A stretch of 37,259 bases of DNA from Treponema sp. GTDB lineage: Bacteria; Spirochaetota; Spirochaetia; Treponematales; Breznakiellaceae. Of this stretch, positions 1 to 37,140 are shown piece by piece; the stretch's first letter is position 1; each line of letters starts with the position of its first letter. The DNA lies in the NCBI GenBank assembly GCA_031276815.1, contig JAISMJ010000092.1, positions 1-37,259 of the forward strand, written 5' to 3'. Under the pieces are notes generated by a model. The model did not search any database. It was not told where the DNA came from and saw only the letters and a program-made list of their open reading frames with translations. Both the position numbers and the translations under genes were made by a program.

Positions 1-524
1 CTAGCCCAGATCGTTTGACTAATCTAATCTTGATCGTTCATCTGCTCTAACCGTGATCTGTTGGCTGATTCAATTCTGATCGCTTGACTGATCTAGCCAT
101 GATCAGTCGACTGATCTAAGCCTGATCAGTTGACTGATCTAGTACTAGATCAGCCGACTGATCTAAGCCTGATCAGTCGACTGATCTAACCGTGATCAGT
201 TGACTGATCTAATTCTGATCCCTCATCTGTTCTAACCTTGCTCGGTTGACCGATCCAATTCTGATCGCTTGACTGATCTAAGCCTGATCAGTTGACTGAT
301 CTAATTCTGATCGCTTGACTGATCTAGCCGTGATCATTCATCCGCTTTAACCGTGATCGGTTGACCGATCCAATTCTGATCGCTTGACTGATCTAGCCGT
401 GATCAGTCGACTGATCTAATTCTGATCCCTCATCTGCTCTAACCGAGATCTGTTGGCTGATTCAATTCTGATCGCTCACCCGATCTAGCCCTGCTCATTC
501 ATCCGCTCAAGCCCTGATCGCTCA
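1..524. repeat. Array A: 23-bp GATC-rich palindromic tandem repeat
   Basis: About 22 head-to-tail units of 23 bp run from the window edge (so the array is truncated) to about 524. The best units carry the perfect 16-bp palindrome GATCAGTCGACTGATC (units starting at 100, 170 and 400) followed by a 7-bp spacer such as TAATTC or TAGCCG. Unit starts fall at 31, 54, 77, 100, 123, 146 (24 bp), 170, 193 and so on up to 515. A trimeric 69-bp higher-order repeat is visible (units at 31/54/77, 216/239/262, 331/354/377 and 423/446/469). I count about 35 GATC sites. It lies downstream of the minus-strand LolA-like operon. The 131 bp between it and that gene are GC-rich and hold nothing I recognise. Confidence 0.95.
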
Positions 525-655
525 ACACATGGCGGCAACGTACGCCGGCGCGTAAGCCCGCGACCGCCCGCATGGGATGCGTTGGCTTGCGCGGGGCGAT
601 TGCGCCGCGGCATTGCAACAGCGCGGCTCTTGTCCGCGCCTCGCGCGCCGCTTCA

Positions 656-1408
656 TTACCGCTCCAGATTGCGCTGGCTAAAGACCGAATCCGCGATGGG
701 CTGATCAAGCGCCACCTGCCGCATAACAAAGGTCGTTTTGCTCCCCTTACGCAGCAGATCGCGCATTTCATACTCAACCGGAAACCGGCGCCCTTCGATG
801 AGCTGGGCGCGGAGCAAGGTAAATTCCTTGAGCTTCGCGCCGGAGAGCGCGTAGAGTTCGTAACGCGCCAGATCGCCGTGTTCTTTATCGATCCAGAGTT
901 TCCGTGTGGGATAGCTTTCCGTCTTCTTCTTTGCGGTGAGTTCGAGAATCCATACCTCCCTCCCATTGAAAACGCCGCTTCCGGTCAGTACCGGCGTGTA
1001 GCGGGCGGAGAGTTTCTCGTTCTCAATGGCGTCCTCATACGACAGATCGGAACCCATCATGGATTCTTTCAGCATGTGCCCCGAAATGAGCATCACTTCC
1101 TCCGTATCGGGCGAATACACGTACAACCGCGCGTTCTTCTTGAGGTACTTGGTTCCGTAGTCTTCAGGGTTGATAAACTCAATGAAACTGTCGCTGTTCC
1201 CCCGCGCCCACGCCTTCAGGGTCTTGACGTACCGCCGGTTCTGATACTCTATGATCATATCGCTTTCATACTGAATGGTGGAGAAGATTTCGTTCTCATC
1301 CACCCGCCGCAGCAGTTCCGCTGCCGAGGGCGTCTGCGCGTTGAGCGTCTGCGCGTGAAGCGCGGACAGCAGCGCCGCCGCCAGCCATACCGTTACATTC
1401 GTTTTCAT
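656..1408 (-). CDS. LolA-like outer-membrane lipoprotein-sorting protein
   Basis: A 250-residue exported protein. The start is the ATG at 1408, because AGGAGG (1415-1420) sits just upstream and the N-terminus MKTNVTVWLAAALLSALHAQ is a clean signal peptide. A longer reading from 1441 would bury it. The body is rich in beta strands with paired aromatic and charged residues (RKLWIDKEHGDLARYE, VWILELTAKK), typical of the COG2834 LolA/LolB-like half-barrel that binds lipid or lipoprotein acyl chains in the periplasm. It is the last gene of a four-gene minus-strand operon with an ABC ATPase and two FtsX/MacB-like permeases, which suggests it accepts a hydrophobic substrate from that transporter. 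The family call rests on pattern and context. The substrate (lipoprotein or another lipid) is inferred. Confidence 0.8.
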   Translation of the reverse strand: MKTNVTVWLAAALLSALHAQTLNAQTPSAAELLRRVDENEIFSTIQYESDMIIEYQNRRYVKTLKAWARGNSDSFIEFINPEDYGTKYLKKNARLYVYSPDTEEVMLISGHMLKESMMGSDLSYEDAIENEKLSARYTPVLTGSGVFNGREVWILELTAKKKTESYPTRKLWIDKEHGDLARYELYALSGAKLKEFTLLRAQLIEGRRFPVEYEMRDLLRKGSKTTFVMRQVALDQPIADSVFSQRNLER

Positions 1409-1505
1409 AATAAACCTCCTATAGTCTATGCGTTTCCACAACGCGCGCGCTCAAAACGCCGCGTTGCGTATAAGGGCGTACAGGACGCATCGCATCCTGC
1501 GCCAG

Positions 1506-2780
1506 TTACCGCCGCAACGCCTCCACCGGCTCGACAAACGCGCTTTTGAGCGAAGGGAACAGGGTGAACAGGGACGAGACGACGACGCCCAGAAGCCAGC
1601 TCCGCGCCAGAGCGCCGATGCTGAAACGGAAGAAAATCGCATTGGCCGCGGGCATTGCGGCAAACGCGCTTTCACCGGCAATGGACGTCCAGCGCAACGG
1701 GACATGCTGCCCTATGACCGTAACGATTCCGCCGAGAACCATGCCAACGGTTGCGCCGGTCATGGCGAGGAACAGGGATTCGAAGAAGAACACCGTAACG
1801 ATTTCCCGCCTCATCATGCCCAGACTGCCCATCATGCCGATTTCTTTGATCCGCTCGTGGATGATCATGGTGATCGTATTGACGATGAGCAGGCACGCCA
1901 CAATGAGGAACACCAGATACATCGCATAGTATACCGGCTGGTACATGTCCATCATCACGATCCAATACTGATCCGTCCATTCGGTAATCACGTCGTCCGC
2001 GTTAAAGAAGGGCGCCATGTCGCGGGCTATGCGGGCGCTCATGTCCGGAGACTCCGCATACACGACTATCTGCTGGCTGGCGTCGTTCAGCGAGAGCAGG
2101 CGCTGGAGGCGCGTGAAGTCCACGATGATCGTCTCCCGATCCATTTTTGCGTAATCGAACCGGAAGACGCCGGTCACTACCGGCGCCCAGAGTTTGTCCG
2201 AGAACTGGGATGAAACGGTCTTGAGAGGGATGCGGTCGCCGATCTTCAGCCCCGTCTTTTCCGCAAAGCGCAGCCCAATGGCGCACTCATTGCTGTCCGG
2301 CGCGGGATAGCGCCCTTCCACAAGCCCGTCCGTTTTGTCCGTGAAGTTGAAGTTGTGTACCGCCGTCTCCTCGCCCATAGTAACGCCCCACAGTCCCGCG
2401 TGTTTGACGACGCTTTCCTGCAAGGTCGCATAGGCGCTGATGCGGGGAAACGCGGCGCGGACGCCGGGTATGGCTTTGATCCGCTCCATCACGGACGCAA
2501 GGCTCGCGCCTTCCGCAACGGGGTACTGTACCGGCGAGTATTCGCTCTCCGCTTCATAGCGGGCTGACACCGCCCGCACATGCCCCAATTCAAACGTCTG
2601 CACCACGTCGTGCATACTTTGAAGCATACCGTCAATGAGCGATGAAAAAAAGATGATGAAAAACACCGCTATCGCCACCGCCGCGACGCAGAACATGGTC
2701 CGGCGCATGTTCCGAAATATGTTTCGGAACGCTATTGTTATGAGGGCTGCCGTTCCCCCGCGTTGTACCGCTTTGTTCAT
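1506..2780 (-). CDS. ABC transporter permease, FtsX/MacB (LolC/E-like) family
   Basis: A 424-residue inner-membrane permease. The topology is MacB-like: one TM helix near residues 29-50, a large periplasmic domain (about 55-275, MacB_PCD type), then three TM helices near 285-310, 330-360 and 390-412. The cytoplasmic coupling segment after TM2 reads ERIKEIGMMGSLGM, the FtsX-family signature that contacts the ATPase. AGGAGT precedes the ATG. It follows the first permease by 93 bp, and the LolA-like gene starts 97 bp downstream, so all four genes are probably one transcript. The two permeases differ in periplasmic domain size, as expected for a LolC/LolE-like heterodimer. Mechanotransmission of lipoprotein is an inference from family and context. 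Confidence 0.88.
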   Translation of the reverse strand: MNKAVQRGGTAALITIAFRNIFRNMRRTMFCVAAVAIAVFFIIFFSSLIDGMLQSMHDVVQTFELGHVRAVSARYEAESEYSPVQYPVAEGASLASVMERIKAIPGVRAAFPRISAYATLQESVVKHAGLWGVTMGEETAVHNFNFTDKTDGLVEGRYPAPDSNECAIGLRFAEKTGLKIGDRIPLKTVSSQFSDKLWAPVVTGVFRFDYAKMDRETIIVDFTRLQRLLSLNDASQQIVVYAESPDMSARIARDMAPFFNADDVITEWTDQYWIVMMDMYQPVYYAMYLVFLIVACLLIVNTITMIIHERIKEIGMMGSLGMMRREIVTVFFFESLFLAMTGATVGMVLGGIVTVIGQHVPLRWTSIAGESAFAAMPAANAIFFRFSIGALARSWLLGVVVSSLFTLFPSLKSAFVEPVEALRR

Positions 2781-2873
2781 ACTAATACTCCTGTTTCAAT
2801 TTATGCGCCCGCCGAAAGCGGGGCGTCTCGCCGTTGCCGGCGGCTATGCCGCCCGCCGCTGACAGAGCGGTAG

Positions 2874-5296: not shown

Positions 5297-5342
5297 AAGT
5301 ATCCTCCTTCAATGAAGCGCATTGTTCTAATAAACTAATACA

Positions 5343-9093: not shown

Positions 9094-11343
9094 CTAATAT
9101 TCCACTTTTATTAAATAGAGATTTATGCCGCTAGCTTTTGAGTAAATATATAGCGAGGCCGGACCTCCCGTATATGCAAAGGTATTGCTAGAAAGAGTAC
9201 TACTATCATCTGTAGTTGCTATTGTACCTAATTCCGCCTCTGCCGTAGCAACGCCTATATTACGCACGTTCCCATTGCTACCGGTAATGAGGTATACTCG
9301 TATCGTACAATCTCCGGTAACGTCAAATTTTAGAGCGCGTTTTGTTGTATCGCCGGTACCTTGAAGCTGTAAGCGGTGAGTAAAGGTATAGTCATCCAGA
9401 GATTTACCACTGGTACCAATCTTCATAGTATTAGTGCCATCAGCTATAAATGTTAAACCATCAATAGTTGTAGTGCTGGTTATATCCCCCGTTAAAGTAG
9501 TAAATTGGTCATCCGAGAAATTCCATTCTTTGTTCTCGCCGCTTCCGCCTGCGGAAACAGTAATTGATTTAGTTACGGTTATCGTGGTTGGAGTGGTTCC
9601 ATCAGTGGTTGTTGCTTGTGCCGTAAGCGTAACGCTCCCTGCCGCAAGTCCCTTGACCGTTACTTCCGCATTGGTAACCGGTTCACTTTGCTCTGCCCCT
9701 TCTACGATAAACTTAGCCTTGTCGGGATCACTCAGACTCCATGTAATAGCCGGATTCGTTACGGTAGGCGGAATATCCGTGGTGAACGTCTCAGTAAGGG
9801 TAACTGTAACGCTATCGTTACCAACAATGGCAAATTGCTCCACAGGCACATAATCAGCCGTTACCGTTATTTTGAGGAAAGCTTCAGCCGCCGCTTGATC
9901 ATCATTTGAAATCATCTGGATATATATGTCGCCCGGAGCGGTAACAGTAACATGCCCTTGTCCGTCTACGGTAATAGAATCAGAGCTTACATGCGCCTCC
10001 TCTAGGGAAACAGCGAATGAAGCGCCCGGTTCGTCAGCGTAGGACGGAATAATAATAGGAACAAGATCAATGCCGGATTGCGCCTCTGACCAACGGAACA
10101 GGGCGGTTTGCGGCGCGATTGCGGTACCGGTTCCCGCAGGAGTCGTAATGTCTCCGTTTTGTCGTATGCCGATACTGACGGCGGCAACCGGAACGGGTCT
10201 CGGCGTAGAAGCGGGCGTATAGAATACCGGAGAACCGGTGAGCTCATTCTCCCATACTCGTATCTGGGAAATTTCCGCCTTTACTCCCATAAGCGCGACG
10301 CCTAAGAAAACCGGCGTATTAGCAAGCACCGACCTCTCAGGTTCCGGATTCTGATTTGTCTCGGTTGGCTCCGGCGTGTATTTGACCAGCTTGCTTGCAT
10401 CGGCGGAAAGCAGTTGCCCATTCTTGCCGATCAATACTTCAGTACGGAAACCTTCGCTTGTACGGGTTACTTCCAATATATATTCGTCGTTTTTCCCCAC
10501 GGGCAGATTCAAGCCCGCAGCAGACGCCACCTCAGTGGGCTTACTCACCACCGACCGGATCGCATAGGGTGTAATCCCGCCGCTTCCGCCGCCTGTCCGG
10601 TAAAACACGCCGCCAACCTTCGATAATTCTCCGGGCTTTTGCGAACCTTCCTCACTCGGCGTAAACCCGCCTACGATGATGCCCTTACTCGTACTAGTAC
10701 TTGCTTGGGTCTCGGTCATTTTTACCCGCGCGCTTATCTTGAAATTACCGGTAAAAAGGTGGTCTATATAGAGAAATGTCGTATCATCAAAACCGGTGCT
10801 TGTTGAAAAAGTACCGGTCGGTCCTGCCGCGCTTGTCGTGTTGAAGAAGCTGTTTATCAAGTACCGGTTGTCGACCAACGCGGGAAGCGCGGTTGTACCA
10901 TCCTCTGAGCCGTCATGCGTTGTAGCGTTTGCGCCATTGTACTCGAATTGCAAGGCATACTGCGAAGCGGTATACACGACAGTAACCGCTATACTAGCTG
11001 TTACAGACGGGTATTCGACAGACGTTGCCGTAACAGTAACCGGTTGGGTTGTCGGCTCTGATCCGGCGGTTATTTCACCGGTAGTTTGGTTGACCGTTAC
11101 TTTGGAGGGATCACTCGAACTCCACTGGAACGTTGACCGGGCGTTTGTAGGCGTCTTCGTTATTTCCGGGGTGAACGAAGCGTTTATGACTAGTTCCTTC
11201 GTTGACGGAACGATTGATATGCCGCTTAATGCCGGCGGGGGGGGGGGGGGGTCGTCGTCTCCGCCAGAATTGCACGCCATGATGAGTACCATCGTTGCCG
11301 CTGCCAGCAGGACGGTACACCCACATAATAATTTCTTTTTCAT
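9094..11343 (-). CDS. Large surface lipoprotein with Ig-like (BIG2-type) domains and C-terminal beta-sandwich
   Basis: A 749-residue lipoprotein: signal peptide and lipobox LIMAC with Cys24, then a short Asp/Pro linker encoded by a 15-nt C run, a BIG2-like domain (about 38-125; FQWSSSDPSKVTVNQTTGEI is characteristic), a laminin/concanavalin-like middle region (about 128-370), and further BIG2-type repeats (about 400-590; ITWSLSDPDKAKF). The last 150 residues (ENKEWNFSDDQFTTLTGDI to NLYLIKVEY) resemble the beta-sandwich that accompanies pectate lyases in gut bacteroidetes and treponemes. It sits in a cluster with a PL9 pectate lyase, so carbohydrate adhesion is plausible. TAAGGAGTAATGTT precedes the ATG. 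The linker homopolymer makes it a likely phase-variable gene; it is in frame here. Confidence 0.85.
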   Translation of the reverse strand: MKKKLLCGCTVLLAAATMVLIMACNSGGDDDPPPPPPALSGISIVPSTKELVINASFTPEITKTPTNARSTFQWSSSDPSKVTVNQTTGEITAGSEPTTQPVTVTATSVEYPSVTASIAVTVVYTASQYALQFEYNGANATTHDGSEDGTTALPALVDNRYLINSFFNTTSAAGPTGTFSTSTGFDDTTFLYIDHLFTGNFKISARVKMTETQASTSTSKGIIVGGFTPSEEGSQKPGELSKVGGVFYRTGGGSGGITPYAIRSVVSKPTEVASAAGLNLPVGKNDEYILEVTRTSEGFRTEVLIGKNGQLLSADASKLVKYTPEPTETNQNPEPERSVLANTPVFLGVALMGVKAEISQIRVWENELTGSPVFYTPASTPRPVPVAAVSIGIRQNGDITTPAGTGTAIAPQTALFRWSEAQSGIDLVPIIIPSYADEPGASFAVSLEEAHVSSDSITVDGQGHVTVTAPGDIYIQMISNDDQAAAEAFLKITVTADYVPVEQFAIVGNDSVTVTLTETFTTDIPPTVTNPAITWSLSDPDKAKFIVEGAEQSEPVTNAEVTVKGLAAGSVTLTAQATTTDGTTPTTITVTKSITVSAGGSGENKEWNFSDDQFTTLTGDITSTTTIDGLTFIADGTNTMKIGTSGKSLDDYTFTHRLQLQGTGDTTKRALKFDVTGDCTIRVYLITGSNGNVRNIGVATAEAELGTIATTDDSSTLSSNTFAYTGGPASLYIYSKASGINLYLIKVEY
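11237..11251 (-). repeat. Homopolymeric G15/C15 tract inside a lipoprotein gene
   Basis: Fifteen consecutive G on the plus strand encode part of the proline linker directly after the lipidated Cys of the 749-residue lipoprotein. A gain or loss of one base would truncate the protein just after its signal peptide, an ideal on/off position. Confidence 0.9.
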
Positions 11344-11448: not shown

Positions 11449-11540
11449 GTGAGAGACGCTCTCACCGCATAGTGAGAAGCTCTCTCACCACATAGTGAGA
11501 GACGCTCTCACCCCGTAGTGAGAAGCTCTCTCACGCAGGG
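11449..11540. repeat. Array B: four 23-bp hairpin repeats at the 3' end of the DUF4469 gene
   Basis: Four units of exactly 23 bp start at 11449, 11472, 11495 and 11518. Units alternate between GTGAGAGACGCTCTCAC (arms GTGAGAG/CTCTCAC) and GTGAGAAGCTCTCTCAC, each followed by 6 bp (CGCATA, CACATA, CCCGTA), giving a 46-bp higher-order repeat. The last unit covers the stop codon of the DUF4469 gene (11531-11533). A partial CTCAC at 11439 lets the first unit pair alternatively. RNA from either strand would form serial hairpins. Confidence 0.93.
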
Positions 11541-12262
11541 GTGGGAGGTTCCGGTGAAGAAACGGTTAATTCCTTCTCAAACGTAAAAGTATGCGGCGTT
11601 TTGAGCGCCTTTCCGGCTCCATACTGGGTAATTATCTTCACGCGGTACGCGCCGGCTGAAAGTTCGGGGATAACCGCGATGATTTCCGAGGGGTTATTAA
11701 CCACAATGTCCGAAGGGTCCACTTTGACCGGATCGCCTGCAACCGGAACAAAGTACAAGCCCACGGACGCATCGTTCCCCGCGATCTTGAGTTTTACGCC
11801 GGAGAGTTTTACGTTCCGGCCGGGCGTCAGCTTCTCGTTCACAGAACCGCTCTTTATGTCCGTTACGCCGGTAATCACCGTGCCGCTGATCACCGCGGCT
11901 ACTTTCTTGACCTTGACGCTGGCGATTGCGGTATGTAACGCGGTGCCTGCATGAAGGTTGAGCTTGACCGTGTGCCGGGACGGATCAAACGTATCGTCAG
12001 GACCCAAAAATACGCCCTGTATGCTGGGAAACGCATTGAACAGTAGAAAATGAATCGCCCCGCCCTCCGCAATGATCTGGGCTATGACCTGCGTTGCGGC
12101 TTCCAGCACGGCTGCGACATCTGAACGGGTCAAACCCGCCCCAATCTGCATGATACGCTCGGTGAGATCTTCGCGAGTATATGAAATGACGTTGATCACC
12201 TGCGCCCGATAATCCCTTTTATCCTCAGTAAGAAGATTTTCCTCAAGGGTGTACTCTAACAT
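11531..12262 (-). CDS. HU-like DNA-binding domain plus DUF4469 (Ig-like fold) protein
   Basis: A 243-residue cytoplasmic-looking protein with no signal peptide. Residues about 1-115 match the HU/IHF-like N-terminal domain seen in bacteroidetes and treponemes (MLEYTLEENLLTE, YTREDLTERIMQIGAGLTRSD, then FPSIQGVFLGPDDTFDPSRH). Residues about 125-230 are an Ig-like DUF4469 domain (GRNVKLSGVKLKI, NNPSEIIAVIPELSAGAYRV). The molecular role of the family is unknown; DNA binding is inferred from the HU-like fold. GAGGAGAAAGCGTT precedes the ATG. It begins 16 bp after the pectate lyase gene, so the two are probably co-transcribed. Its stop codon lies within the hairpin repeat array B, making that array a candidate target or regulator. 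Confidence 0.82.
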   Translation of the reverse strand: MLEYTLEENLLTEDKRDYRAQVINVISYTREDLTERIMQIGAGLTRSDVAAVLEAATQVIAQIIAEGGAIHFLLFNAFPSIQGVFLGPDDTFDPSRHTVKLNLHAGTALHTAIASVKVKKVAAVISGTVITGVTDIKSGSVNEKLTPGRNVKLSGVKLKIAGNDASVGLYFVPVAGDPVKVDPSDIVVNNPSEIIAVIPELSAGAYRVKIITQYGAGKALKTPHTFTFEKELTVSSPEPPTPA

Positions 12263-12278: not shown

Positions 12279-14894
12279 TTACAATGCGGTTTCGTCCGCA
12301 GTATGTAATCCCACAGCTCCGGGTTGCGTCCCGTTGATGTTTTTTGTTTTCATAAAGCCGTTCAGTACAAACGAACCATCGTCATGCCGTTCAATGAACG
12401 TTCCCCGTATTGAAGGATCAAAGGGCGCGGCGTCCGCCAAAGGCAGCGCCGCAGACACGATGTTCCGCTCGACCGTGATGACCGACTCGCTCTTATTACG
12501 GGAGGCGTTATTACGCCACACGTACCCGACCGCGGTTAAAGTGGTGTCCCACCACACGCCGTCATTGCTATGCTCGCCGGAATCCGCAGAATACATGGAA
12601 AGTACGCGAGTTACCTTTGCGTCAAGCCCCTCAGGAGCGCTCGTGCCTGAGCCGTATATCGCGTAGCCTCTGCCGGCGTTTTCGTACGCGGTGCAGTTGG
12701 TAAGGATGAGCGCGGGGTTTGAATTGCTGGTAAAGCCGTCCGCGCCGTTGAGAAACGCCAGGGAATTGACGATAGTATGCTTGACGGCTATGCCTTCGCC
12801 GCCCATCTTGAAGCCGTTGCCGCCCGATGCGGCGAACACCGCTTCGCCTGATCCGTCCGCATTAAAGTAGTACCCGTTGCTGTAGGCTATGCAATATTCA
12901 ACCGTTACGGCTCCTATCGCGCCGGTTTCCTTCTTGGTAAAGAGGTCCCAGCCGTCATCGCAGTTGTGGTGCGCGACGCACCATGTAAATGTATTGCCGT
13001 TGCCCACTGTGAGCTTCGCGGCGAAACCGTCCGCGTCTTCGCGGGCTTCGTCTTTGTTGTTAAAGGATTCGCAGAACGAAATAGTATTATGGGAGGGCCA
13101 CAACGCCTTAGGCTCCGCGCTTTCTCCGCTTATCTGCAAGCCGGTATCGCCGTTATTGTAGGTTTTTACCCATTCAACAACGTTATGGTGTCCCATGACG
13201 GTGAGCCCCTTCCGTTTAACCGGAGCTGTGCCTCGCACATGTATCCCGCTTATCTTCCAATAATCCCCTCGCAGTTCAAAGCCCTTGTTTTGGGGATTAC
13301 CCTGAAAGTCGATGATCGCCTTGTCGCGATGTTCCGCTTTCAAAGTTTTGAGATTTCCCTCGCTGCCGTTATTGTAGCGCGGTATTGACACAGCGAGCGG
13401 CGTGTATACGCCATCCTGCATGATCACGGACTTTCCCGCCTGTACGTAGGCGATGCCTGTATCAAGGTCAACGGGATTATCCCGCGTCCCCGCATTGGAT
13501 GCGCGTCCGGTAGGAGACACCCAGATATTGCCTTCGGCGTCTCCCATTGTTTTTTTATTGACGATAAAGGAGAGGGAAAGCGGCGTGGTAGAAGACAAGA
13601 GGTACTGGGATTGAGACTGGTTGTTGTCAGGGTAGAACATAAGGCGGAACACGTTGTCCCCGTCGCGGAGTCCCGATGCGGGTACGGTAAACTGCGTAAA
13701 CGGTACCGAGACCGCGTTGGACTTCTCAACCATCCACTCGCCTCGTCCCGCCTCTTCCGGCAGCGCCGTACCGTTGAGAGAGACGGCAAGCGTCCCCTCT
13801 ACGTTTGATCGGGCGACAAGGGTATAGTCAGAAGACGCCGAAGCGGATGGGGAATATATGTTTAAGGAAGGCTCGATAAGAACAGAATCAGGTATGACGC
13901 GGGGAGCGCAATCATCAACGTTAGCTTCAGAATAGCTGATGTTCCGTACAGTAATTTCCGCGCTGCGCGCCGCAAAAAAACCTATGTAATAATGGTCTTT
14001 ATTTATTGCGGTTAAAAGATCTGGTTCAGGTATGAAGTAGTCGAACCGTTGGCCGGCATAACCCCCCCCCCCCCCCGCGCCGCGTACAGTTTGGAGGATC
14101 ACGGCGTTAAAGCCGGAATTCGTCTTCTCCAGCGTCAGGCTATATTTTGATCCCGCGCTTGGAAAATCGGGGCGGTCGTTCATCGTGGGATAGGGCGAAT
14201 AATCCGGCAGTTCACGGGGAGTAAAATCAAACACGGCTTTTGAGGCGTCGGCTATCTTACCCGGGTCATTATCAGTTATACATTCGCCGGTTGGATCCGT
14301 AACGCCGGTACGCCAATATACCCGCGCGCCCCGTTTCACGCCGCCGACCATTATCATGTTTCCCGTACCGCCGGTAGACCCCGCATAATACTCGCCGTCA
14401 GCCTCGACGCCTCTCAGCTCTTCCATAGTGTACCCCGGATATTGCGGCACGTAGTCCCGCGCCATAAGCCCGAAACCTTCCTGCCCGTTCAATTCGGTAC
14501 GGCCGTTCTGCAAACCAAAGAATTTAACTTCCACTTCAGCGGAAAGCGAAAAATTCATATTCGCGTCAACTTCCTTAAAGTAAAACGTTATGCCGTCCTC
14601 ACTGCCCGCAATTTTTCCCGCGCTGCTAGTGCTATTGTTGGCATAAAGCGTGATGCTACCATCTGGTTCTATCGTCGTTTTATTGCTCGGCGCTTTGTTG
14701 GCGCTTGTCCCGAAGTTGAGCCGATGCATGTTCGATGCGTTCAACTCCACGGCATGGAAGGCATTGGGATTGTTTTCCGTATATTCGCCGAAGCCGGAAA
14801 ATGCGTTACATGAACATAATGCGGATATTATAACAAGAGCTTTGACCAACACACAAAGCGTGGTTATGGACAAACCGAATATTTTTTTATTCAC
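12279..14894 (-). CDS. Pectate lyase, polysaccharide lyase family 9, lipoprotein
   Basis: An 871-residue secreted lipoprotein. The start is GTG at 14894 with AGAGGG upstream; the lipobox is ALCSC (Cys29). Residues about 40-325 form a concanavalin-like sandwich, about 330-445 an Ig-like linker, and about 455-860 the right-handed parallel beta-helix of PL9. The Ca2+-binding segments DADGFAAK (620-627) and CDDGWDLF (645-652) and the GNGFKMGG segment with the probable catalytic Lys696 are all present, so beta-elimination of polygalacturonate is predicted. A C15 tract (14062-14076) encodes a Gly run at about 273-278 and could switch the gene off before the catalytic domain. It is followed by the DUF4469 gene. 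Confidence 0.9.
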   Translation of the reverse strand: MNKKIFGLSITTLCVLVKALVIISALCSCNAFSGFGEYTENNPNAFHAVELNASNMHRLNFGTSANKAPSNKTTIEPDGSITLYANNSTSSAGKIAGSEDGITFYFKEVDANMNFSLSAEVEVKFFGLQNGRTELNGQEGFGLMARDYVPQYPGYTMEELRGVEADGEYYAGSTGGTGNMIMVGGVKRGARVYWRTGVTDPTGECITDNDPGKIADASKAVFDFTPRELPDYSPYPTMNDRPDFPSAGSKYSLTLEKTNSGFNAVILQTVRGAGGGGGYAGQRFDYFIPEPDLLTAINKDHYYIGFFAARSAEITVRNISYSEANVDDCAPRVIPDSVLIEPSLNIYSPSASASSDYTLVARSNVEGTLAVSLNGTALPEEAGRGEWMVEKSNAVSVPFTQFTVPASGLRDGDNVFRLMFYPDNNQSQSQYLLSSTTPLSLSFIVNKKTMGDAEGNIWVSPTGRASNAGTRDNPVDLDTGIAYVQAGKSVIMQDGVYTPLAVSIPRYNNGSEGNLKTLKAEHRDKAIIDFQGNPQNKGFELRGDYWKISGIHVRGTAPVKRKGLTVMGHHNVVEWVKTYNNGDTGLQISGESAEPKALWPSHNTISFCESFNNKDEAREDADGFAAKLTVGNGNTFTWCVAHHNCDDGWDLFTKKETGAIGAVTVEYCIAYSNGYYFNADGSGEAVFAASGGNGFKMGGEGIAVKHTIVNSLAFLNGADGFTSNSNPALILTNCTAYENAGRGYAIYGSGTSAPEGLDAKVTRVLSMYSADSGEHSNDGVWWDTTLTAVGYVWRNNASRNKSESVITVERNIVSAALPLADAAPFDPSIRGTFIERHDDGSFVLNGFMKTKNINGTQPGAVGLHTADETAL
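14062..14076 (-). repeat. Homopolymeric C15/G15 tract inside the pectate lyase gene
   Basis: Fifteen C on the plus strand (G15 in the coding strand) encode consecutive Gly codons around residue 275, upstream of the catalytic beta-helix. It is the same length as the tract in the neighbouring lipoprotein gene. The reading frame is intact as given. Confidence 0.9.
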
Positions 14895-15217
14895 AGTATC
14901 CCTCTGGATATAATGTACCGTCTTTTAGGAAAAAGATAGTGCTATCTTTTTGCACTTTTCCGACATACTCCTAAACGCTACGCCGCAATCCTTTACGGTA
15001 CAAGAGGTATCAGGTAGAGACTGTCAGTGGATGTGCGAGCGGGCGCTATAAAGCGGTTAGCAGAACACGGCGCAGCGGAGAATTGTCCCCCACGTTAAGG
15101 CTGCATATAAAAGCGGGGGTTGCGAAAAGCGGAGCAAGGCTACAGCGAGCGGGAGCAGCGTCAAAAACGGCGCCCTCCCTCCTTACTTTTTTTATTGCGT
15201 TAATACCGGACAGTCTT
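14895..15217. other. 323-bp intergenic region with palindrome and dispersed repeat copy
   Basis: Contains a perfect inverted repeat AAAAAGATAG-TG-CTATCTTTTT (14930-14951), upstream of the pectate lyase start. It could be an operator or a bidirectional terminator for the 15218 gene. It also holds one copy of a 23-bp dispersed repeat (15151-15173). I see no gene here. Confidence 0.6.
15151..15173 (+). repeat. Dispersed 23-bp intergenic repeat, copy 1
   Basis: GGGAGCAGCG followed by TCAAAAACGGCGC recurs at 26353-26375 with one mismatch (A to G). Both copies are intergenic. Function unknown. Confidence 0.6.
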
Positions 15218-16990
15218 CTATTCCGCAACAAGAGCCGTACATCCCGCAAAAGCAGTACCGGCAACGGTTGCGCTTTCCGGCATGTATACGCTAACCAGAT
15301 TGTTGCAGTTCTTGAAGGCAGCGTCATCAATTTGCATTACGCTGGGTAGTGAAATAGTAGCGAGCGCGGTACAGCCGCTGAACGAATGATGTCCAATGGT
15401 TGCGACTTTTGGAACGTATACGGACGTCAAGGCTACGCAATTATAAAACGCTCCATGTACGTTGTCTTTCGTGGTATTGGCGATGTTTGTTGCTTCAGGC
15501 AGAGAGACGGATGAAAGATTCACACACCCATCGAATGCTCCCCGTTCTACCGTCAAGACGCCGGGCATATCTGCGAAAACAAGCGCCGTACAACCAAGAA
15601 GCGCATTACTATCAAGCTTGGTAATGGAAGCCGGAAGAACAACCGAAACGACGTACTGTTTTCCCGGGGCAGTTGTAGGAGTGATACTGACAAACGTGTT
15701 TCCACTGCTGCCGCTTAAATCCAGCGCGACGTACCGGTTAAGCGCATTGTATAACGTCCGCAAGGTGTTTCCGGTTGTTCCGCTACCGGATATATTTACG
15801 CCATTCATGGTAACATGGTAGGGATACTCTTGCGTATTGGGCGGGAGCGCGGCAAGCGCTTTGGCAAGACTTTCAACACTATCCGCTTCTATACTCGCGG
15901 GCGGATCAACAGACAAGAGTATCTCCCGCCCGTGCGGTACGCCGTTTTTCACACCGGCAAACGATAAAAAGTGCCTGCCGCTGTGTAATCCATATGCGTT
16001 AATGAAAAACGCCGCTTCCGTGTTGTTTCCGCTTGATGCAGGAGCAACCGGTTGTCCGTCCAACCAACATTCGATCCGTGTAAAACCCGTTACCGTTAAG
16101 GACAATGATGAAGGAACGCCTTCGGCGCCGGTTCCGGTGAGGATCACAGGTCCGGGAGGCAATCCCCGTATGTCGATGACTTCTCCGGCGCCGATACTGA
16201 TCTCAAGCGCGGAAGATTCCGGTTCGGCATCGTGCGGGGGGAAATCACCCATCGTAAACTCCATGTCCGGCAATGCGGTAGTAGTACCGGAATAGATGTA
16301 CACGACTTCACTCCGTCCGGTCTCCGCGCCTCCTGATGACAAGGTAATCTCCACGAGGTAATAACCGGGCGGCAGGCTCACGGAGCCTTCGCTTTGTTCA
16401 AGCATATCGACTTCGCTATACGGTGAAAACGCGCCGTCTTTCAATACCGAGAGTAGCATACTACCGCTTTCGACCGCATCAGCCGGAAACCGTACACGCC
16501 ACGTAAACGTGCCATGTATACCGCTTTCCGTGACTGGTTTATTCATCACAATCTCGGCTTGGGTTGTTCGCCCTGCGACTACCGTTACCTCGACGCTGCC
16601 GCATACCGCTGGTACGGGTACCGAACCCGCGGAATTTGTCCAGCCCGTAGCGGTTATGATCCACGTACCCGGTTCAAGCGCGATCTCTACGCTTGTTTTG
16701 TGTTCCAAAACGACATCCGGCGCGCTTTTTCCGTTTTCGCCGGTAAAGATCAGCGTATATTTGACAAAATCTCCGGTATCGGGGTAGACAGTACGCTGGT
16801 TCGACCCAGCGATCCGAATCAGCGCCCGTCCTGCGGCGTCTTCCCGATCCTGATGATCATTGTCTGAACACGCCGTAAACATACCGGCGTACAACAAGGC
16901 GAGCGCGACTGCCAGCGCAGTCAATGCGCCGCGTAAACCGCAGGAGATGTTCTCCTGTCTGTGCTTTTTAATTGGTATTTGTTGTTGCAT
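15218..16990 (-). CDS. BspA-like leucine-rich-repeat surface lipoprotein
   Basis: A 590-residue lipoprotein starting at the ATG at 16990, chosen for GGAGG 8 nt upstream. The signal peptide ends in lipobox FTAC with Cys41. Residues about 60-390 are a series of beta-sandwich-like segments (YTLIFTGENGKSAPDVVLE, PPGYYLVEITLSSGG). From about 440 to the end come TpLRR/LRR_5 repeats of BspA type: LPASITKLDSNALLGCTAL, CVNLSSVSLPEATNI, CTALATISLPSVMQIDDAAF. BspA-like LRRs mediate adhesion in treponemes and oral or gut anaerobes. The protein ends in a final LRR cap (CTALVAE), so it is probably complete. It precedes the pectate lyase gene in the same direction, but 323 bp separate them. Confidence 0.88.
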   Translation of the reverse strand: MQQQIPIKKHRQENISCGLRGALTALAVALALLYAGMFTACSDNDHQDREDAAGRALIRIAGSNQRTVYPDTGDFVKYTLIFTGENGKSAPDVVLEHKTSVEIALEPGTWIITATGWTNSAGSVPVPAVCGSVEVTVVAGRTTQAEIVMNKPVTESGIHGTFTWRVRFPADAVESGSMLLSVLKDGAFSPYSEVDMLEQSEGSVSLPPGYYLVEITLSSGGAETGRSEVVYIYSGTTTALPDMEFTMGDFPPHDAEPESSALEISIGAGEVIDIRGLPPGPVILTGTGAEGVPSSLSLTVTGFTRIECWLDGQPVAPASSGNNTEAAFFINAYGLHSGRHFLSFAGVKNGVPHGREILLSVDPPASIEADSVESLAKALAALPPNTQEYPYHVTMNGVNISGSGTTGNTLRTLYNALNRYVALDLSGSSGNTFVSITPTTAPGKQYVVSVVLPASITKLDSNALLGCTALVFADMPGVLTVERGAFDGCVNLSSVSLPEATNIANTTKDNVHGAFYNCVALTSVYVPKVATIGHHSFSGCTALATISLPSVMQIDDAAFKNCNNLVSVYMPESATVAGTAFAGCTALVAE

Positions 16991-25112: not shown

Positions 25113-25161
25113 CGCCCGCTCTCCGGCTACGCCGAAAAGCAGGTGTCCGGCGCGTTTTTAA

Positions 25162-25455
25162 GCCATAGCCTAAAAAATTAAAGCCATAGCCTAAAGAAAA
25201 AACGCCATAGCCTAAAAAATTAAAGCCATAGCCTAAAGAAAAAACGCCATAGCCTAAAAAATTAAAGCCATGGCCTAAAGAAAAAACGCCATGGCCTAAA
25301 GAATTAAAGCCATGGCCTAAAGAAAAAACGCCATAGCCTAAAAAATTAAAGCCATGGCCTAAAGAATTAAAGCCATAGCCTTGAAAAAAAACGCCGTGGC
25401 GTATAAAATAGAAGCCATAGCATATAAAACAAAGTCCATAACCTAAAATAAGGAG
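25162..25455 (+). repeat. Array C: fourteen 21-bp repeats ending in a ribosome-binding site
   Basis: Fourteen consecutive units of exactly 21 bp start at 25162 and end at 25455. Each begins GCCATAGCC or GCCATGGCC. The second half alternates between TAAAAAATTAAA and TAAAGAAAAAAC, giving a 42-bp dimeric higher-order repeat over most of the array. The dyad around GCCATGGC extends imperfectly into the flanking TTAAA/CTAAA. The last three units decay, and the final one (25435-25455) ends in AGGAG, which is the Shine-Dalgarno sequence of the gene at 25461. The plus strand has in-frame TAA stops in the units, so the array is not coding in that frame. Confidence 0.95.
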
Positions 25456-25460
25456 TATGT

Positions 25461-26105
25461 ATGAGCAATGATTTTATTCCCGCTTCCGAAGCGGAATTTC
25501 TCTCCTTCGCCACGACCTTTAACGCCGGAGTAACCGCCCACGGGACGTTGTTGGGCATTCCCGCAGTCCTCCAGACCGGCAATACGGCGAAACTGACGGC
25601 TTACACCGCCGCCTACCACATCGCCGAGTCCCCCAACGCGGGCAAACTCGACCGTGAAGACCGCCGGGAAAAGCGCGAGGACTTGACGAAAAACATCCGC
25701 AAGATCAAGAACGCCTACCTTGACGCCGACCCGCTGGACGCGGTAACGCCGGAAATCCTCATGGACTGCGGTCTCCCCGCCAAAGACCGCATCCGCACCG
25801 ATATTCCCGACCCGGTGGAAGTCGTCCCGTTCACCCTTGAGGGCGGCGAATACCTGCAAATTATCGTGAACCACCCTGCCCGCCCGCCGCGTTACAACGG
25901 CGCGGTGGCCCGCTACAAAGCCGGCGGTCCGGCTCCCGCGACCCACAAAGAGCTGACCGAGAGCAAACTGCTCACACGTCCCCGTGAAATCCTCACCTTC
26001 GAGGACACGCAGTTGGGTCAGACGCTCTACATCGCGCTGTACTGGCAGAATGAAAAAGGCCGGCTGGGTCCGCCCTCGCCGATACAGGCGCGGGTGATTG
26101 CATAA
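25461..26105 (+). CDS. Conserved protein with helical N-terminus and Fn3-like C-terminus
   Basis: A 214-residue soluble protein with no signal peptide. Residues about 1-100 are helical with conserved-looking FIPASEAEFLSFATTF, AYTAAYHIAESPN and a highly charged helix (LDREDRREKREDLTKNIRK). After a Pro-rich turn (RTDIPDPVEVVPF) the C-terminal half is beta-rich and ends LYIALYWQNEKGRLGPPSP, like a fibronectin type III or Ig strand pair. I recall proteins of this style as uncharacterised families in treponemes and bacteroidetes, with no known function. The gene is noticeably richer in G/C-ending codons than its surroundings. Its ribosome site AGGAG (25451-25455) is the end of repeat array C, so expression and the array are linked. 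A hairpin terminator follows. Confidence 0.8.
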   Translation: MSNDFIPASEAEFLSFATTFNAGVTAHGTLLGIPAVLQTGNTAKLTAYTAAYHIAESPNAGKLDREDRREKREDLTKNIRKIKNAYLDADPLDAVTPEILMDCGLPAKDRIRTDIPDPVEVVPFTLEGGEYLQIIVNHPARPPRYNGAVARYKAGGPAPATHKELTESKLLTRPREILTFEDTQLGQTLYIALYWQNEKGRLGPPSPIQARVIA

Positions 26106-26451: not shown

Positions 26452-27303
26452 ATGATGAAGAACATTGAAGATTGTACTATCGGCATCGCCGGTTTAGGAC
26501 TGATGGGCGGCGCCATTGCCATGGCGTTGCGCGGAAACGTGCGGCGCATACTCGCATACGATATTGACGGGGCTGTGCTTACGGCGGCGCGGGAAGATGC
26601 GGTCATTGACAGGGGGTTCGCACACCCCCAAGATATGCTTGCGTTATGCGACGTGGTGTTCTTGTGCCTCAACCCTTCGACCATCCTCGCCTTCTTGGAC
26701 GCATGGATGCCCTTCTTTGAGCCGGGAACCCTCCTTACCGACATAGCCGGCGTCAAAACCCCTATTGTGCGCGCGATGGAAACCAAGCTGCGCCCTGATC
26801 TTGATTTCGTTCCCGGTCATCCCATGGCGGGAAGCGAAAAAGGCGGCTATGCGCAGGCGCGGTGTTGCAGCTTCACGGGCAAGAACTACATACTCACCCC
26901 CTTGAAACGCACCAAACCCGAAAGCGTCGACTTTATCAGAAACATCGTCTATCGCATGGGATTCAGCCGCATAACCGAAACAACTGCGGAAGATCACGAC
27001 CGGAAAATCGCCTTTACGAGCCAGCTCTGCCACGTCATTGCCGCCGCGCTCATTGATTGCGAGCCGGATGGCGCTATCGCCAGCTTCGGAGGGGGCAGCT
27101 TTGAAGACCTCACCCGTATCGCCATGCTCAACGCCCCCCAGTGGACCGAGCTTTTCCTTGAAAACAAACATGAACTGCTGCGCCGGATCGCGCAATTTGA
27201 AGGCAGCCTCGACGCCCTGAAAACCCTCATTGAGACGGAGCGAACGGACGAGTTGCAGGCGTACCTACAGACGGTACGGGAACGAAGGGCGCGGATGACG
27301 TGA
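26452..27303 (+). CDS. tyrA: Prephenate/arogenate dehydrogenase
   Basis: A 283-residue NAD(P)-dependent dehydrogenase of tyrosine biosynthesis. The Rossmann fingerprint GIAGLGLMGGAIA lies near the N-terminus, with acidic DID at the end of beta2 (YDIDGA), favouring NAD. Catalytic-domain motifs are LTDIAGVKTPIV, the signature PGHPMAGSEKGGYA (about 125-138), and TTAEDHDRKIAFTSQLCHVIAAAL with the substrate-pocket His residues. There is no ACT or chorismate mutase domain. The start ATG 26452 (ATGATG) has only a weak ribosome site. It overlaps the following membrane protein gene by 4 bp. Confidence 0.93.
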   Translation: MMKNIEDCTIGIAGLGLMGGAIAMALRGNVRRILAYDIDGAVLTAAREDAVIDRGFAHPQDMLALCDVVFLCLNPSTILAFLDAWMPFFEPGTLLTDIAGVKTPIVRAMETKLRPDLDFVPGHPMAGSEKGGYAQARCCSFTGKNYILTPLKRTKPESVDFIRNIVYRMGFSRITETTAEDHDRKIAFTSQLCHVIAAALIDCEPDGAIASFGGGSFEDLTRIAMLNAPQWTELFLENKHELLRRIAQFEGSLDALKTLIETERTDELQAYLQTVRERRARMT

Positions 27304-28125: not shown

Positions 28126-28446
28126 GATTGAAGATAAATCTGCGTGGAGTGGGAGTGAATCCACATAGATTGAAGTTGAATCCGCGCAGATTAGAAGTAA
28201 ATCTGCACAGATTGAAGTCGAATCCACACAGATTAGAAGTGAATCTGCACAGATTGAAGTCGAATCCACGCAGATTGAGAGTGAATCTGCACAGATTGAA
28301 GTCGAATCCACGCAGATTGAGAGTGAATCTGCACAGATTGAAGTCAAATCCACGCAGGTTGAGAGTGAATCTGCACAGATTGAAGTCGAATCCGCGCAGA
28401 TTGAGAGTGAATCTGCACAGATTGAAGTCAAATCCACGCAGGTTGA
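28126..28446. repeat. Array D: fifteen 21-bp repeats between convergent genes
   Basis: Fifteen consecutive 21-bp units start at 28126, with a partial sixteenth at 28441. Two unit types alternate: GATTGAAGTCGAATC + CACGCA and GATTGAGAGTGAATC + TGCACA, a 42-bp dimer. Each unit is a dyad GATT-N7-AATC plus a 6-bp spacer, and AATCTG-CA-CAGATT forms a second inverted repeat across unit borders. Differences among copies are nearly all transitions. All reverse frames and two forward frames are open simply because the period is a multiple of three, and none has a start signal, so I do not call a gene. Confidence 0.95.
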
Positions 28447-31675: not shown

Positions 31676-31692
31676 AGTAAGTAGAGGAAATA

Positions 31693-32922: not shown

Positions 32923-32958
32923 CGCGTCGCAGCGCAGCCGCGCCGCCATGGAGGTAGT

Positions 32959-33513: not shown

Positions 33514-33973
33514 CACAAGAATGTTTCTGGTAAAAGCAGGGGTATTTCTTGCCTTGCTTTGCTATCCGCTTTCCTGCTTCTCCTCAACATCCTTTAAGAC
33601 AGCGGAGCTTTCTATTACAACCGCAGACGGCGCCGTCATCCCGCTATCTGTGGAAATCGCCGCAACCGAAGAAGAGCGGCGACAGGGTCTCATGTTCAGA
33701 ACAGAACTCGAAGACGGCAAAGGCATGATATTCTTGTTTGAGAAAGACCGCATTCTATCTTTTTGGATGAAAGACACGCTTATCCCCCTGTCGATTGCCT
33801 TTCTTTCCTCTGAGGGACGCATCACGGAAATCCGCGACATGGAACCGCGGAGTCTGGCTACCGTCATGTCGGAACGCTCCTGCCGTTACGCGCTGGAAGC
33901 GCCGCAGGGCTGGTTCGCCAGAGCCGGCGTCGGCGTTGGCGACCGGGTTGCCGTTGAACATCTGATGCAATGA
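33503..33973 (+). CDS. DUF192 family exported protein
   Basis: A 156-residue exported protein. GTG 33503 has GAGAGG 9 nt upstream; ATG 33521 is an alternative. A signal peptide (VKAGVFLALLCYPLSC) precedes the DUF192 domain, with hallmark RQGLMFRTELEDGKGMIFLFE, LSFWMKDTLIPLSIAFLSSEG and a C-terminal ALEAPQGWFARAGVGVGD. The family is a small beta-barrel of unknown biochemical role, sometimes found near stress or chaperone genes. It overlaps the preceding exported protein gene and lies 10 bp before clpC. Confidence 0.9.
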   Translation: MISNTRMFLVKAGVFLALLCYPLSCFSSTSFKTAELSITTADGAVIPLSVEIAATEEERRQGLMFRTELEDGKGMIFLFEKDRILSFWMKDTLIPLSIAFLSSEGRITEIRDMEPRSLATVMSERSCRYALEAPQGWFARAGVGVGDRVAVEHLMQ

Positions 33974-33983
33974 CCGGATCGCT

Positions 33984-36461
33984 ATGTATATCGGATTGAC
34001 GAAACGCGTGGAGCGAATCATAGCGGTAGATGCACAGAACGAAGCGCGGCGCTGCAATGTCGACGAGATTCTGCCCGAACATATCGTTATTGCCATTTTG
34101 AAAAACGGAAACGGACGCGCCTGTAGAGCGCTTACGTTCTTGAGCATAGATCTGGATGACTTTTCCCGCTACATCGGCAACGCCCTTATCTATATAGGCG
34201 GAATCATACGCGAGGGTGAAATCCCCTTTTCCCAGCGGACAACCTATATGCTGGAAACCGCAGCGGAAGAAGCCCGCATGATGGAAAACGCTCTGATTGG
34301 TACCGAACACCTCCTGCTCGCGGCTATGCAAGAGCCGGGAACCATACAAACCTATCTTCTACGCAAAGACATAGACATACGCCGTGTTCGCATGACCATT
34401 CAGATGGAAATGCCGGTTGCAAGAGACGCCCATACCCATAGTCAAGAACACGGCGGCGGCAAAAACATCACAGCCCGCGTCAGAGTAAGACCCGCGGTAT
34501 ATCCCCGCCTTACGCCGGTACTGGACGGATTTTCCCGCGATCTCACCGCTGCGGCGCAGGACGGTAAACTTGAACCGGTCATAGGGCGGGAGAAAGAGAT
34601 TACCCGCATGATGCGTATCCTTGCCCGCAAAACCAAAAACAATCCGGTATTGGTGGGAGAACCCGGCGTAGGAAAAACCGCCATTGTGGAGGGGCTTGCC
34701 CAGCTATACGTATCAGACGCGACCGATGTTCTTGAACGCAGCCGCATCGTGTCGCTTGACATAGGCGCCTTGATTGCGGGTACCAAGTACCGGGGTGAAT
34801 TTGAAGAGCGCGTCAAGAACATCATTGAAGAGCTCAAACAGTCGGGCGACATCATCCTGTTCATTGATGAAATTCACACGGTCATCGGCGCGGGAAACCC
34901 TGAAGGTACGCATGACATCGCGAGTATGCTCAAGCCCGGACTTGCGCGCGGCGAATTCCGCTGTATAGGCGCAACGACCGCCGCCGAATACCGCAAATAC
35001 TTTGAGAAAGACGCGGCTCTGGAACGCCGTTTCCAACCCGTCATGGTACATGAGCCAACTATTGAAGAAACGCTCGCCATTCTCACCGGCATCAAAGCGT
35101 CCTACGAGGCGTTTCATCATGTGCGCTACTCGGATGAGGCTGTTCGCGCCGCGGTACGCTTGAGCCAGCGCTACCTTCCCGAGCGATTCATGCCTGACAA
35201 AGCCATTGATATGCTTGATGAAGCCGGCGCTTTTCTGAAAACGGACGCGGTCGAGATGCCGCCCGAAGTCTCCCGTTTTGAAACCGAGATGCTGCGCCTC
35301 CGTCAGGAAAAAAATCTTGCGGTCATAAGCGGGAAGCTTGAAAACGCGTTTCACATCAGGGAAAAGGTGAAATATTTCCATACCCGCGTCATTGAAGCCA
35401 AACATGCGTGGGAACGGTATGCGAATAACGTATATCCCCTCGTTACCAAACGCCATGTACAGGAAATAGCATCGGAAGTAACGGGCATACCTCTTGCCCG
35501 TCTTGACGGTATAGAAGCGAAGCGGCTGTTGCGCCTCGAAGAAGAACTCCGTACAACGGTTATCGGTCAGGATGAGGCGATTTCCCACATCGCATCCGCG
35601 CTCCGGAGAGCGCATTCCGGCGTCTCCTCCCCGCTGCGTCCGCTCGGCTCCTTCATGTTTCTGGGTCCTACGGGCGTGGGCAAAACCCTTCTTGCAAAAC
35701 GGCTTGCCGCCTTTCTTTTCGGCAGCGAAACAGACCTGCTCCGCCTCGACATGTCCGATTACATGGAGAAATACAACGCGGCGCGTTTAGTCGGCGCTCC
35801 GCCCGGGTATATCGGCTACGGCGAAGGCGGCGTTCTTACCGAAACGGTTCGAAAAAAGCCCTACCGCGTGATCTTGTTTGATGAAATTGAGAAAGCGCAC
35901 CGCGATGTCTGCAACCTCCTGCTGCAAGTACTTGAAGAAGGCGAGCTCACGGACAGCATGGGGCATACGGTTAATTTCCGTAATACGGTCATCATCATGA
36001 CGAGCAACGCCGGCATCAAGGACATACGCCGCGCGTTCCGGCTCGGTTTCCGCTCCGGCGATGCCGTTATGAGCCGCGGGGAATTCGAAGCCGCGGCAAA
36101 AGAAGAACTGCGCCGCGCGTTCAGCCTCGAATTCCTCAACCGTGTAGACGATGTTATCGTCTTCAGCGCCCTTACGAAGGATGACATCGGCGCTATTCTC
36201 GATATACAGGTACAGGAGCTTTCAAAGCGGCTCCATGACCAGACCCTTACCCTCGCCATAACGGAAGCCGCGCACGCCGCTCTTATCGAAAAGGCGTGGG
36301 ATCCCTCATTCGGCGGACGCCCCTTACGGCGTACCCTGCAAACCGAGTTGGAGGACCCCATAGCGCGGCTCATTCTTAACGGATCAGTATCCCCCGGGTG
36401 CGTATTCCGCATCGACGCGCCTGCGGGAGAGATCACGGTACAAGCGGAAGCGTCTTCATAA
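33984..36461 (+). CDS. clpC: ATP-dependent Clp protease ATPase subunit, ClpC/ClpA type
   Basis: An 825-residue Hsp100 unfoldase with a Clp N-domain (about 1-145), AAA+ domain 1 with Walker A GEPGVGKT (225-232) and Walker B ILFIDEIH, a short coiled middle region with a UVR-like stretch ([25 protein letters not shown]), AAA+ domain 2 with Walker A GPTGVGKT (about 561-568) and Walker B VILFDEIE, and a C-terminal D2-small domain ending [22 protein letters not shown]. An LGF tripeptide (about 686) in the second AAA+ domain suits docking to ClpP. The short middle domain points to ClpC rather than ClpB or full ClpA. It lies 10 bp after the DUF192 gene and is probably the end of that operon. Array E follows 148 bp downstream. 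Confidence 0.94.
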
Positions 36462-36609
36462 CAGGCGGAACGCCGGATACCGGTTCACCGCCGCCGCTGA
36501 TGACGTCCGCCCCATACGTCTTCGCATGTTTTACGCATCCTCATTTTTATCTATAGCCAGATAGACTTTGGTATTCAGCCGCCTCGCCGGATATCCGTAT
36601 AGAGTGGTT

Positions 36610-37140
36610 ATGAGTTAAAAGCCATAACGGATAAGTCAGAAGCCATAACGGATAAGTCAGAAGCCGTAGCGAATGACTTAAAAGCCATGGCTAATGACTT
36701 AAAAGCCATGGCTAATGACTTAAAAGCCGTAGCGAATGAGTTAAAAGCCATAACGGATAAGTCAGAAGTCATGGCGAATGACTTAAAAGCCATAGCGAAT
36801 GACTAAAAGTCATGGCGAATGAGTCAGAAGCCGTAGCGAATGACTTAAAAGCCATGGCTAATGACTTAAAAGCCGTAGCAGATGAGTCAGAAGCCATAGC
36901 GAATGAGTCAGAAGCCATAGCGAATGAGTCAGAAGCCGTAGCGGATGAGTTAAAAGCCATAACGGATAAGTTAAAAGCCATAGCGAATGAGTCAAAAGCC
37001 ATGGCTAATGACTTAAAAGCCGTAGCAAATGACTTAAAAGCCATAGCGGATGAGTCAAAAGCCATAGCGGATGAGTCAAAAGCCATAACGGATGAGTTAA
37101 AAGCCATAGCGAATGAGTTAAAAGCCATAGCGGATATGTG
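36610..37140. repeat. Array E: about 25 repeats of 21 bp downstream of clpC
   Basis: A half-unit at 36610 is followed by 24 units starting at 36621 and a partial last unit ending near 37140; one unit (36789) is 20 bp through loss of a T. The pattern is GCCATAGCGAATGAGTTAAAA-like with alternatives GTA/ATG for ATA, ACG/GCT for GCG, GAT for AAT, AAG/GAC for GAG and TCAGAA for TTAAAA. Units with CCATGG carry the 10-bp palindrome AGCCATGGCT. In the plus frame the array reads as heptads such as ANDLKAM, ADESKAI and ANELKAI, conservative I/M/V, N/D and K/E changes typical of coiled coils. However, no start signal precedes it and the 20-bp unit breaks the frame. The core is shared with array C. Confidence 0.95.

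Follow-up and report, generated by a model that had tools for sequence, protein, structure and literature searches.

Repeats with internal dyad symmetry, or set in tandem beside a small gene, are known from several bacterial systems. Repetitive extragenic palindromic (REP) sequences and bacterial interspersed mosaic elements (BIME) are dyad repeats tied to a gene family, the REP-associated tyrosine transposases (RAYT), and also occur dispersed without the gene. Iteron and centromere-like operator arrays are tandem dyad sites of about two helical turns, with their cognate protein nearby; in type III toxin-antitoxin loci, tandem repeats precede a small gene; and CRISPR arrays have dyad-bearing repeats of similar length. 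The present analysis concerns five tandem arrays (A to E), with periods of 21 or 23 base pairs (bp), on a 37,259-nt contig of Treponema sp. (JAISMJ010000092.1, hereafter the window; contig C92 of its source genome), together with two gene families: the HU-DUF4469 family, and one here called the FN3 family, after a predicted fibronectin type III (FN3) domain. Two independent kinds of gene-plus-array unit, each with a fixed side and period, are established: 21-bp arrays lie on the 5′ side of FN3-family genes, and 23-bp arrays at the 3′ end of HU-DUF4469 genes. Both consist of a small protein gene (an N-terminal domain plus an Ig-like or FN3 C-terminal domain) and an array of constant period and variable sequence, and the pairing of period with family is found in more than one bacterial phylum.

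Each of the known systems shares something with these units. As with REP/BIME-RAYT, the dyad repeats are both gene-linked and gene-free, but here they run head-to-tail at one fixed period, and Pfam found no Y1/HUH transposase domain in 48 FN3-family members. Iteron and centromere-like arrays are likewise tandem dyad sites with what may be a cognate protein nearby, but here a chromosome holds many arrays, each built on a unit of its own, and none of the genes of the window was recognised by Pfam as serving replication or partition. Type III toxin-antitoxin loci resemble the 21-bp class in having an array upstream of a small gene; they differ in that the period here is shorter, a predicted FN3 protein takes the place of a recognised toxin, and there is no RNA-strand bias. 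A check for a ToxN-like fold with Foldseek listed FN3 domains for the whole protein model. CRISPR arrays differ in that the units here are head-to-tail, at 21 or 23 bp, with no unique spacers. Finally, the window HU-DUF4469 gene and most neighbours of 23-bp arrays belong to the HU superfamily (PF14848, PF14734; PDB 4fmr), the difference here being the row of tandem 23-bp dyad units that stands at the gene's 3′ end. In a limited literature check, no nameable known kind was found in which a gene family is coupled like this to repeats of fixed period but free sequence.

Arrays were detected with Tandem Repeats Finder (TRF). For the FN3 family, linkage was assessed in 78 genes from 21 genomes: the window copy and 77 fetched places (60 in other genomes, 17 in the source genome), a subset of the family matches listed. 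A tandem array ends within 400 bp upstream of 73 of these genes; the period is 21 bp in 68 and 42 bp in two (together 70 of 78). The same measure gave nine of 195 open reading frames (ORFs) of the source genome, a background set that includes HU genes. Downstream, a 21-bp array was found at one of 73 genes. The 21-bp arrays end a median of 82 bp before the start codon, and a purine-rich AGGAG-like sequence precedes most FN3-family start codons. Two of the five array-less genes are cut by contig ends (36 and 164 bp of upstream sequence) and one has no array; of the remaining two, L152 has an array 763 bp away and L153 a shrunken one of two copies. In a second, named set, which overlaps largely with the first (same assemblies), an array is present at 49 of the 53 loci whose upstream sequence reaches at least 250 bp, with a period of 21 bp in 47; seven shorter loci were set aside. 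Not all such arrays are short: at L026 (1703-3026), a 63-copy 21-bp array reaches the end of contig C112.

For the HU-DUF4469 family, the window gene scores 94.5 and 94.2 bits against gathering scores of 30 and 22.6 for its two domains and has a solved relative, PDB entry 4fmr (E 1.3e-21); six further members were confirmed by Pfam. Among 44 genes (40 fetched places and four further), a 23-bp array was present in the downstream sequence retrieved for 35; its distance from the stop codon is at most 400 bp in 34 genes and at most 50 bp in 29. One of the 44 has such an array upstream; in the background, 23-bp arrays lie within 40 bp of the stop at three of 195 ORFs. The source genome alone has the array at 11 of its 12 HU-DUF4469 genes. 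One of the nine genes without an array has just 5 bp of flank. Of four HU-DUF4469 genes examined in G037 and G040 (two in each; the latter from another family of the same order), L445, L436, and L437 have the array and L446 lacks it. A tblastn search of annotated public records added six loci in plasmid-labelled replicons, five from Parabacteroides distasonis TSDC17.2-1.1 and one from Treponema saccharophilum pTS2; all six have a tandem array 5-43 bp past the stop codon (five of 23 bp, one of 24 bp), and the unit sequence is particular to each array. No publication on DUF4469 turned up in a literature search of limited scope.

The original prediction, made from the window alone, had proposed a single design for all five arrays, possibly bound by one protein class such as the HU-like protein encoded there. 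The periods assigned to the five arrays were all recovered by TRF, and mapping relative to genes gave the consistent positions described above. The single design has to be given up for two classes: an HU-like partner fits the 23-bp arrays (34 of 44), but the 21-bp arrays adjoin a different family.

FN3-family genes are numerous where they occur, with 50 matches in the source genome (2.37 Mb in 131 contigs, 80.6% complete) and up to 52 per genome. Among 59 relatives, the family is present in 27 of 36 inside the GTDB-style family f1 and in none of the 23 outside it; of 392 genomes drawn from across the phylum, 12 have a match, and ten of these belong to f1. It is also found in metagenome-assembled genomes (MAGs) of Planctomycetaceae (30, 10, and 7 matches) and in one Prevotellaceae MAG (11 matches), with remote matches in seven of 293 other genomes of the planctomycete phylum. 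For remote members in these MAGs and in single-contig genomes, a 21-bp array is present at 21 of 31 distinct loci with at least 150 bp upstream, and one further locus each has an array of 20 and 22 bp; in other planctomycete-phylum genomes, nine of 16 located loci have an array. Since the linked loci L271-L273 lie in single-contig genomes (3,855,671 and 4,059,867 bp), the arrays are not created by short-read assembly.

Some of the genes in the four Planctomycetaceae and Prevotellaceae MAGs (G423-G426) are close to Treponema copies (L218 is 48% identical to the query); this similarity suggests transfer between phyla or binning errors. Arrays of 22 bp were seen at L352 (8002-8235), L353 (263-533), L355 (13773-13857), and L379 (4493-4865), in two planctomycete-phylum genomes in which remote members of the FN3 family are present too. 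They may represent a third period class; no FN3-family gene was recognised in the six sampled stretches with such arrays.

The preference for these periods extends beyond the window, as had been predicted. In 287,545 bp of the source genome (20 other contigs, picked by number), 25 tandem arrays had a TRF score of at least 50 and at least 2.5 copies; 11 have a period of 21 bp, 10 of 23 bp, and four others. The solo 21-bp arrays and the ten 23-bp arrays of this sample thus show that arrays also live alone and that a second class exists. No 21- or 23-bp array was found in 216,818 bp sampled from three genomes that gave no FN3-family match (G025, G037, G021), although G037 has, elsewhere, the 23-bp array at L445. 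Two carriers of the family (G001, G004) also had none in about 56 kb sampled each, and a third genome (G020) had three in 60 kb.

Coordinates of the window features are collected in Table 1. The contig starts inside array A, which has DNA relatives on contigs C117 and C87; the one on C117 (L168, 601-2082) begins 2 bp past the stop codon of an HU-DUF4469 homologue. In the window contig there is no HU match besides the gene next to array B. Array B begins 3 bp before the end of that gene's stop codon (in gene orientation), and its core is the same as that of L418 (dyad p 0.005). Its array family was seen once in the source genome; those of A, C, D, and E are represented by related arrays on further contigs. 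Array C is separated from the FN3-family start codon by 12 bp. Array D has relatives on C111, C19, C128, and C129, and a search of 1.1 kb around it found no FN3-family gene remnant. The same holds for array E, as far as the contig reaches; E belongs to the same array family as arrays upstream of FN3-family genes on C77 and C11 (L151, L154).

Table 1. Positions of the arrays and their neighbouring genes in the window
Feature	Position	Strand	Description
Array A	1-427 by TRF (to 524 in longer-period rows)	.	23 bp x 18.5, core GATCAGTCGACTGATC; solo in contig
Array B	11449-11534	-	TRF 23 bp x 3.7; at HU-DUF4469 stop codon
HU-DUF4469 gene	11531-12262	-	HU-DNA_bdg (PF14848, 6.2e-27) and DUF4469, Ig-like fold (PF14734, 5.1e-27)
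Array C	25160-25448	+	TRF 21 bp x 13.8; directly 5′ of FN3-family gene
AAGGAG	25450-25455	+	Probable ribosome-binding site of FN3-family gene; position checked
FN3-family gene	25461-26105	+	214 aa; predicted three-helix bundle 10-87, FN3 domain about 114-214
Array D	28153-28446	.	TRF 42 bp (2 x 21) x 7, i.e., 14 units of 21 bp; solo
Array E	36610-37132	.	TRF 21 bp x 25; solo in contig

Some side observations can be added. On C117, the A-like 23-bp array of L168 turns into a 28-copy array of 46-bp period. In the window, a 15-base G run (11237-11251) and a C run (14062-14076), both intragenic, are possible phase-variation tracts, and the gene at 9094-11343 encodes a proline run just past a lipoprotein-like signal.

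The window FN3-family protein is predicted by AlphaFold (predicted local distance difference test score 94.5) to consist of a three-helix bundle and an FN3 domain. The C-terminal domain of the model aligns with solved FN3 domains over 94 residues (Z 12.1, root-mean-square deviation 2.4); sequence models do not recognise it, and the FN3 assignment comes from the predicted structure. Pfam gave nothing above cut-off for 48 members (best E 0.0024), NCBIfam nothing and PHROGs a best E of 0.41 for three proteins each, and PADLOC nothing for P0001, L151, and L162, with one weak CARF match (E 0.0064) for L279. At L321, an ORF (14230-15630) opens like an FN3-family protein (MSGDFLPADDSGCDAFF), but its continuation looks unrelated and includes a stretch resembling a signal peptide; a 21-bp array lies 12 bp 3′ of the ORF.

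In both classes the spacing of the units is kept while their sequence changes. Counted over 81 non-redundant 21-bp arrays, mismatches come to 2743 and indels to 50; the 35 HU-linked arrays have 651 and 14. Both give about 0.02 indels per mismatch, ratios that are biased downward by the preference of TRF for regular arrays. Units turn over faster than the neighbouring proteins: L162 and L163, with 94% identical proteins and similar flanks, have units that match at 11 of 21 positions. Dyad symmetry exceeds that of shuffled units in both classes. Of the 81 non-redundant 21-mers, 16 have p ≤ 0.05 (Fisher p 2e-5; by a second score, Wilcoxon 1e-8), as do 13 of 30 23-mers (Fisher 6e-12), in line with the prediction of a genome-wide family of non-coding 21- and 23-bp arrays with a dyad excess.

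Changes in the two arms of the dyad also appear to be coupled, in tests that kinship among the sequences inflates. For the HU-linked units, 23 of 35 were alignable when anchored on the spacer CTAYGC alone; at seven stem pairs, 61% of stem cells are Watson-Crick, against 31% after partner shuffling (reached in 0 of 2000 shuffles), the stems including GTTAGAG/CTCTAAC, ATTAGAG/CTCTAAT, TGGAGAG/CTCTCCA, and TTTCAGA/TCTGAAA. Nineteen 21-bp units anchored on a single GASTC pair at 46%, against 35% (1 of 2000).

These arrays are perhaps best read as DNA-level rows of operator-like sites, most likely bound by the product of the neighbouring gene, a reading in which we infer the binding and which we put at about an even chance. 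The sites would be spaced at the footprint of the protein, and its Ig-like domains could bridge neighbours along the row. The unit sequence would drift fast by concerted evolution, with compensating changes restoring the dyad, and the row would serve self-regulation or the local DNA organisation of its locus. That HU-DUF4469 proteins bind their 23-bp arrays is plausible, given the DNA-binding domain; for the FN3-family protein, DNA binding is a guess by analogy. Because the units turn over fast at near-constant protein sequence, the data argue for recognition of spacing and dyad shape, or recognition by a few residues, rather than strict sequence recognition.

A number of results weigh against this reading. 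Many arrays are solo, including A, D, and E; none of the 11 sampled 21-bp arrays adjoins a recognised FN3-family gene, and one of them lies beside a remnant of such a gene. No DNA-binding domain is recognised in the FN3 family, and in Foldseek the helix bundle alone has no solved-fold match at E ≤ 0.001, which does not make the fold new. At L123/L125 and L162/L163, the units differ to chance level at 92-94% protein identity. Such a difference is difficult to reconcile with a neighbouring protein that reads specific sequences, unless few residues decide, and co-variation of protein and array as simple sequence recognition is not supported. The dyads themselves are uneven: 65 of 81 21-mers (p > 0.05) and 17 of 30 23-mers lack a significant one, as do arrays C (consensus p 0.64) and E (E-type unit L151, p 0.95) as well as the consensus of A (p 0.21), so that the dyad originally claimed for every unit is a property of the population and not of each array. 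In the 23-bp compensation test, the count of pair types does not exceed that of the shuffles, 673 of 2000 attaining it, and slid registers pair at 14-37%, two of them at 35-37%. Mispairs in the 23-bp dyads lean towards G.T (35, against 21 A.C; p 0.08), which leaves room for an RNA role. Helical phasing, proposed to set the sites of all five arrays on one DNA face, fits 21 bp (two turns) but not 23 bp (about 2.2 turns), and was rejected as a shared reason for both periods.

An RNA role for both classes would have the arrays transcribed, as the 5′ leader of FN3-family mRNAs and the 3′ untranslated region of HU-DUF4469 mRNAs, and forming hairpin chains that control stability, termination, or translation, or that bind the encoded protein in the manner of a repeat-RNA antitoxin. 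We consider this somewhat unlikely. The positions would suit it, since the 23-bp arrays start at the stop codon and the 21-bp arrays end shortly ahead of the start codon, and folding is somewhat better for the units than for shuffled ones (mean z -0.78); the antisense strand, however, folds equally well (-0.71), and the 21-bp dyads show no G.T excess over A.C (90 vs. 111), which together favour action as DNA for that class. Rfam found no match in the window at gathering score. Promoter-like (sigma-70) sites lie between array and gene at 12 of 60 loci, against 5.7 expected, an excess that is no more than suggestive; a promoter there would put the array outside the mRNA at loci such as L105 and L124. 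Dispersal as a selfish element, comparable to REP/RAYT, with array and gene forming a mobile or conversion-prone cassette and solo arrays its offspring, is unlikely, although it would account for the copy number, the presence of one array family both with and without the gene, and the occurrence of the gene family in Planctomycetaceae and Prevotellaceae MAGs. Several close copies that lie in unlike surroundings cease to resemble each other no more than 4 bp from the stop codon, as a cassette would; this is so for 14 of the 25 listed pairs with the highest similarity, about seven of the 14 being distinct. On the other hand, the close pairs L162/L163 and L233/L234 share hundreds of downstream bases; transposase, recombinase, and nuclease domains are absent from the 48 members scanned; and searches for the family, with one protein or alignment each, returned nothing from phages (query P0001), from plasmids (L151), or from viral contigs (A2). 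The search for an empty site gave no clean case: at TyrA (26452-27303) the FN3-family gene is upstream in none of nine relatives, but Sua5 is not upstream either and the synteny differs, so the comparison is uninformative.

If the arrays were a functionless by-product of slippage or gene conversion acting on any dyad seed, fast unit turnover and many solo arrays would be expected; two exact periods with almost no others, a side and position fixed relative to two gene families across phyla, and few indels make this very improbable. Coding of heptad (coiled-coil) peptides by the 21-bp arrays is barely credible and was rejected as their function. Twenty-one bp is seven codons, and D and part of E do read as heptads in one frame, but openness in six frames (2.83, against 2.73 in column-shuffled controls) and in the three sense frames (1.54 against 1.37) is just slightly above control. 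Seven of 81 arrays lack an open sense frame, array C is among those interrupted, and a one-base deletion breaks the frame of E. As the original prediction held, coding cannot be the common reason, 23 not being a multiple of three.

Arrays that keep their period but not their sequence, and that accompany a gene family through different phyla, are a strong sign of an unrecognised DNA-protein (or RNA-protein) system. The analysis singles out the FN3 family as an unannotated multi-copy protein family and gives the HU-DUF4469 proteins a testable partner in the 23-bp array. The arrays could also explain assembly breaks, since the window contig begins within array A and ends shortly past array E. The operator-row reading can be taken further, tentatively and with more doubt than confidence, to two convergent classes of self-addressed unit, in which a small protein with an Ig-like C-terminal domain would read a fixed-period dyad array beside its own gene, with the code conserved in the spacing (21 or 23 bp) and the sequence serving as an address that changes fast and that concerted evolution keeps renewing. 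If so, genomes in at least three phyla would each contain tens of private, protein-coated loci.

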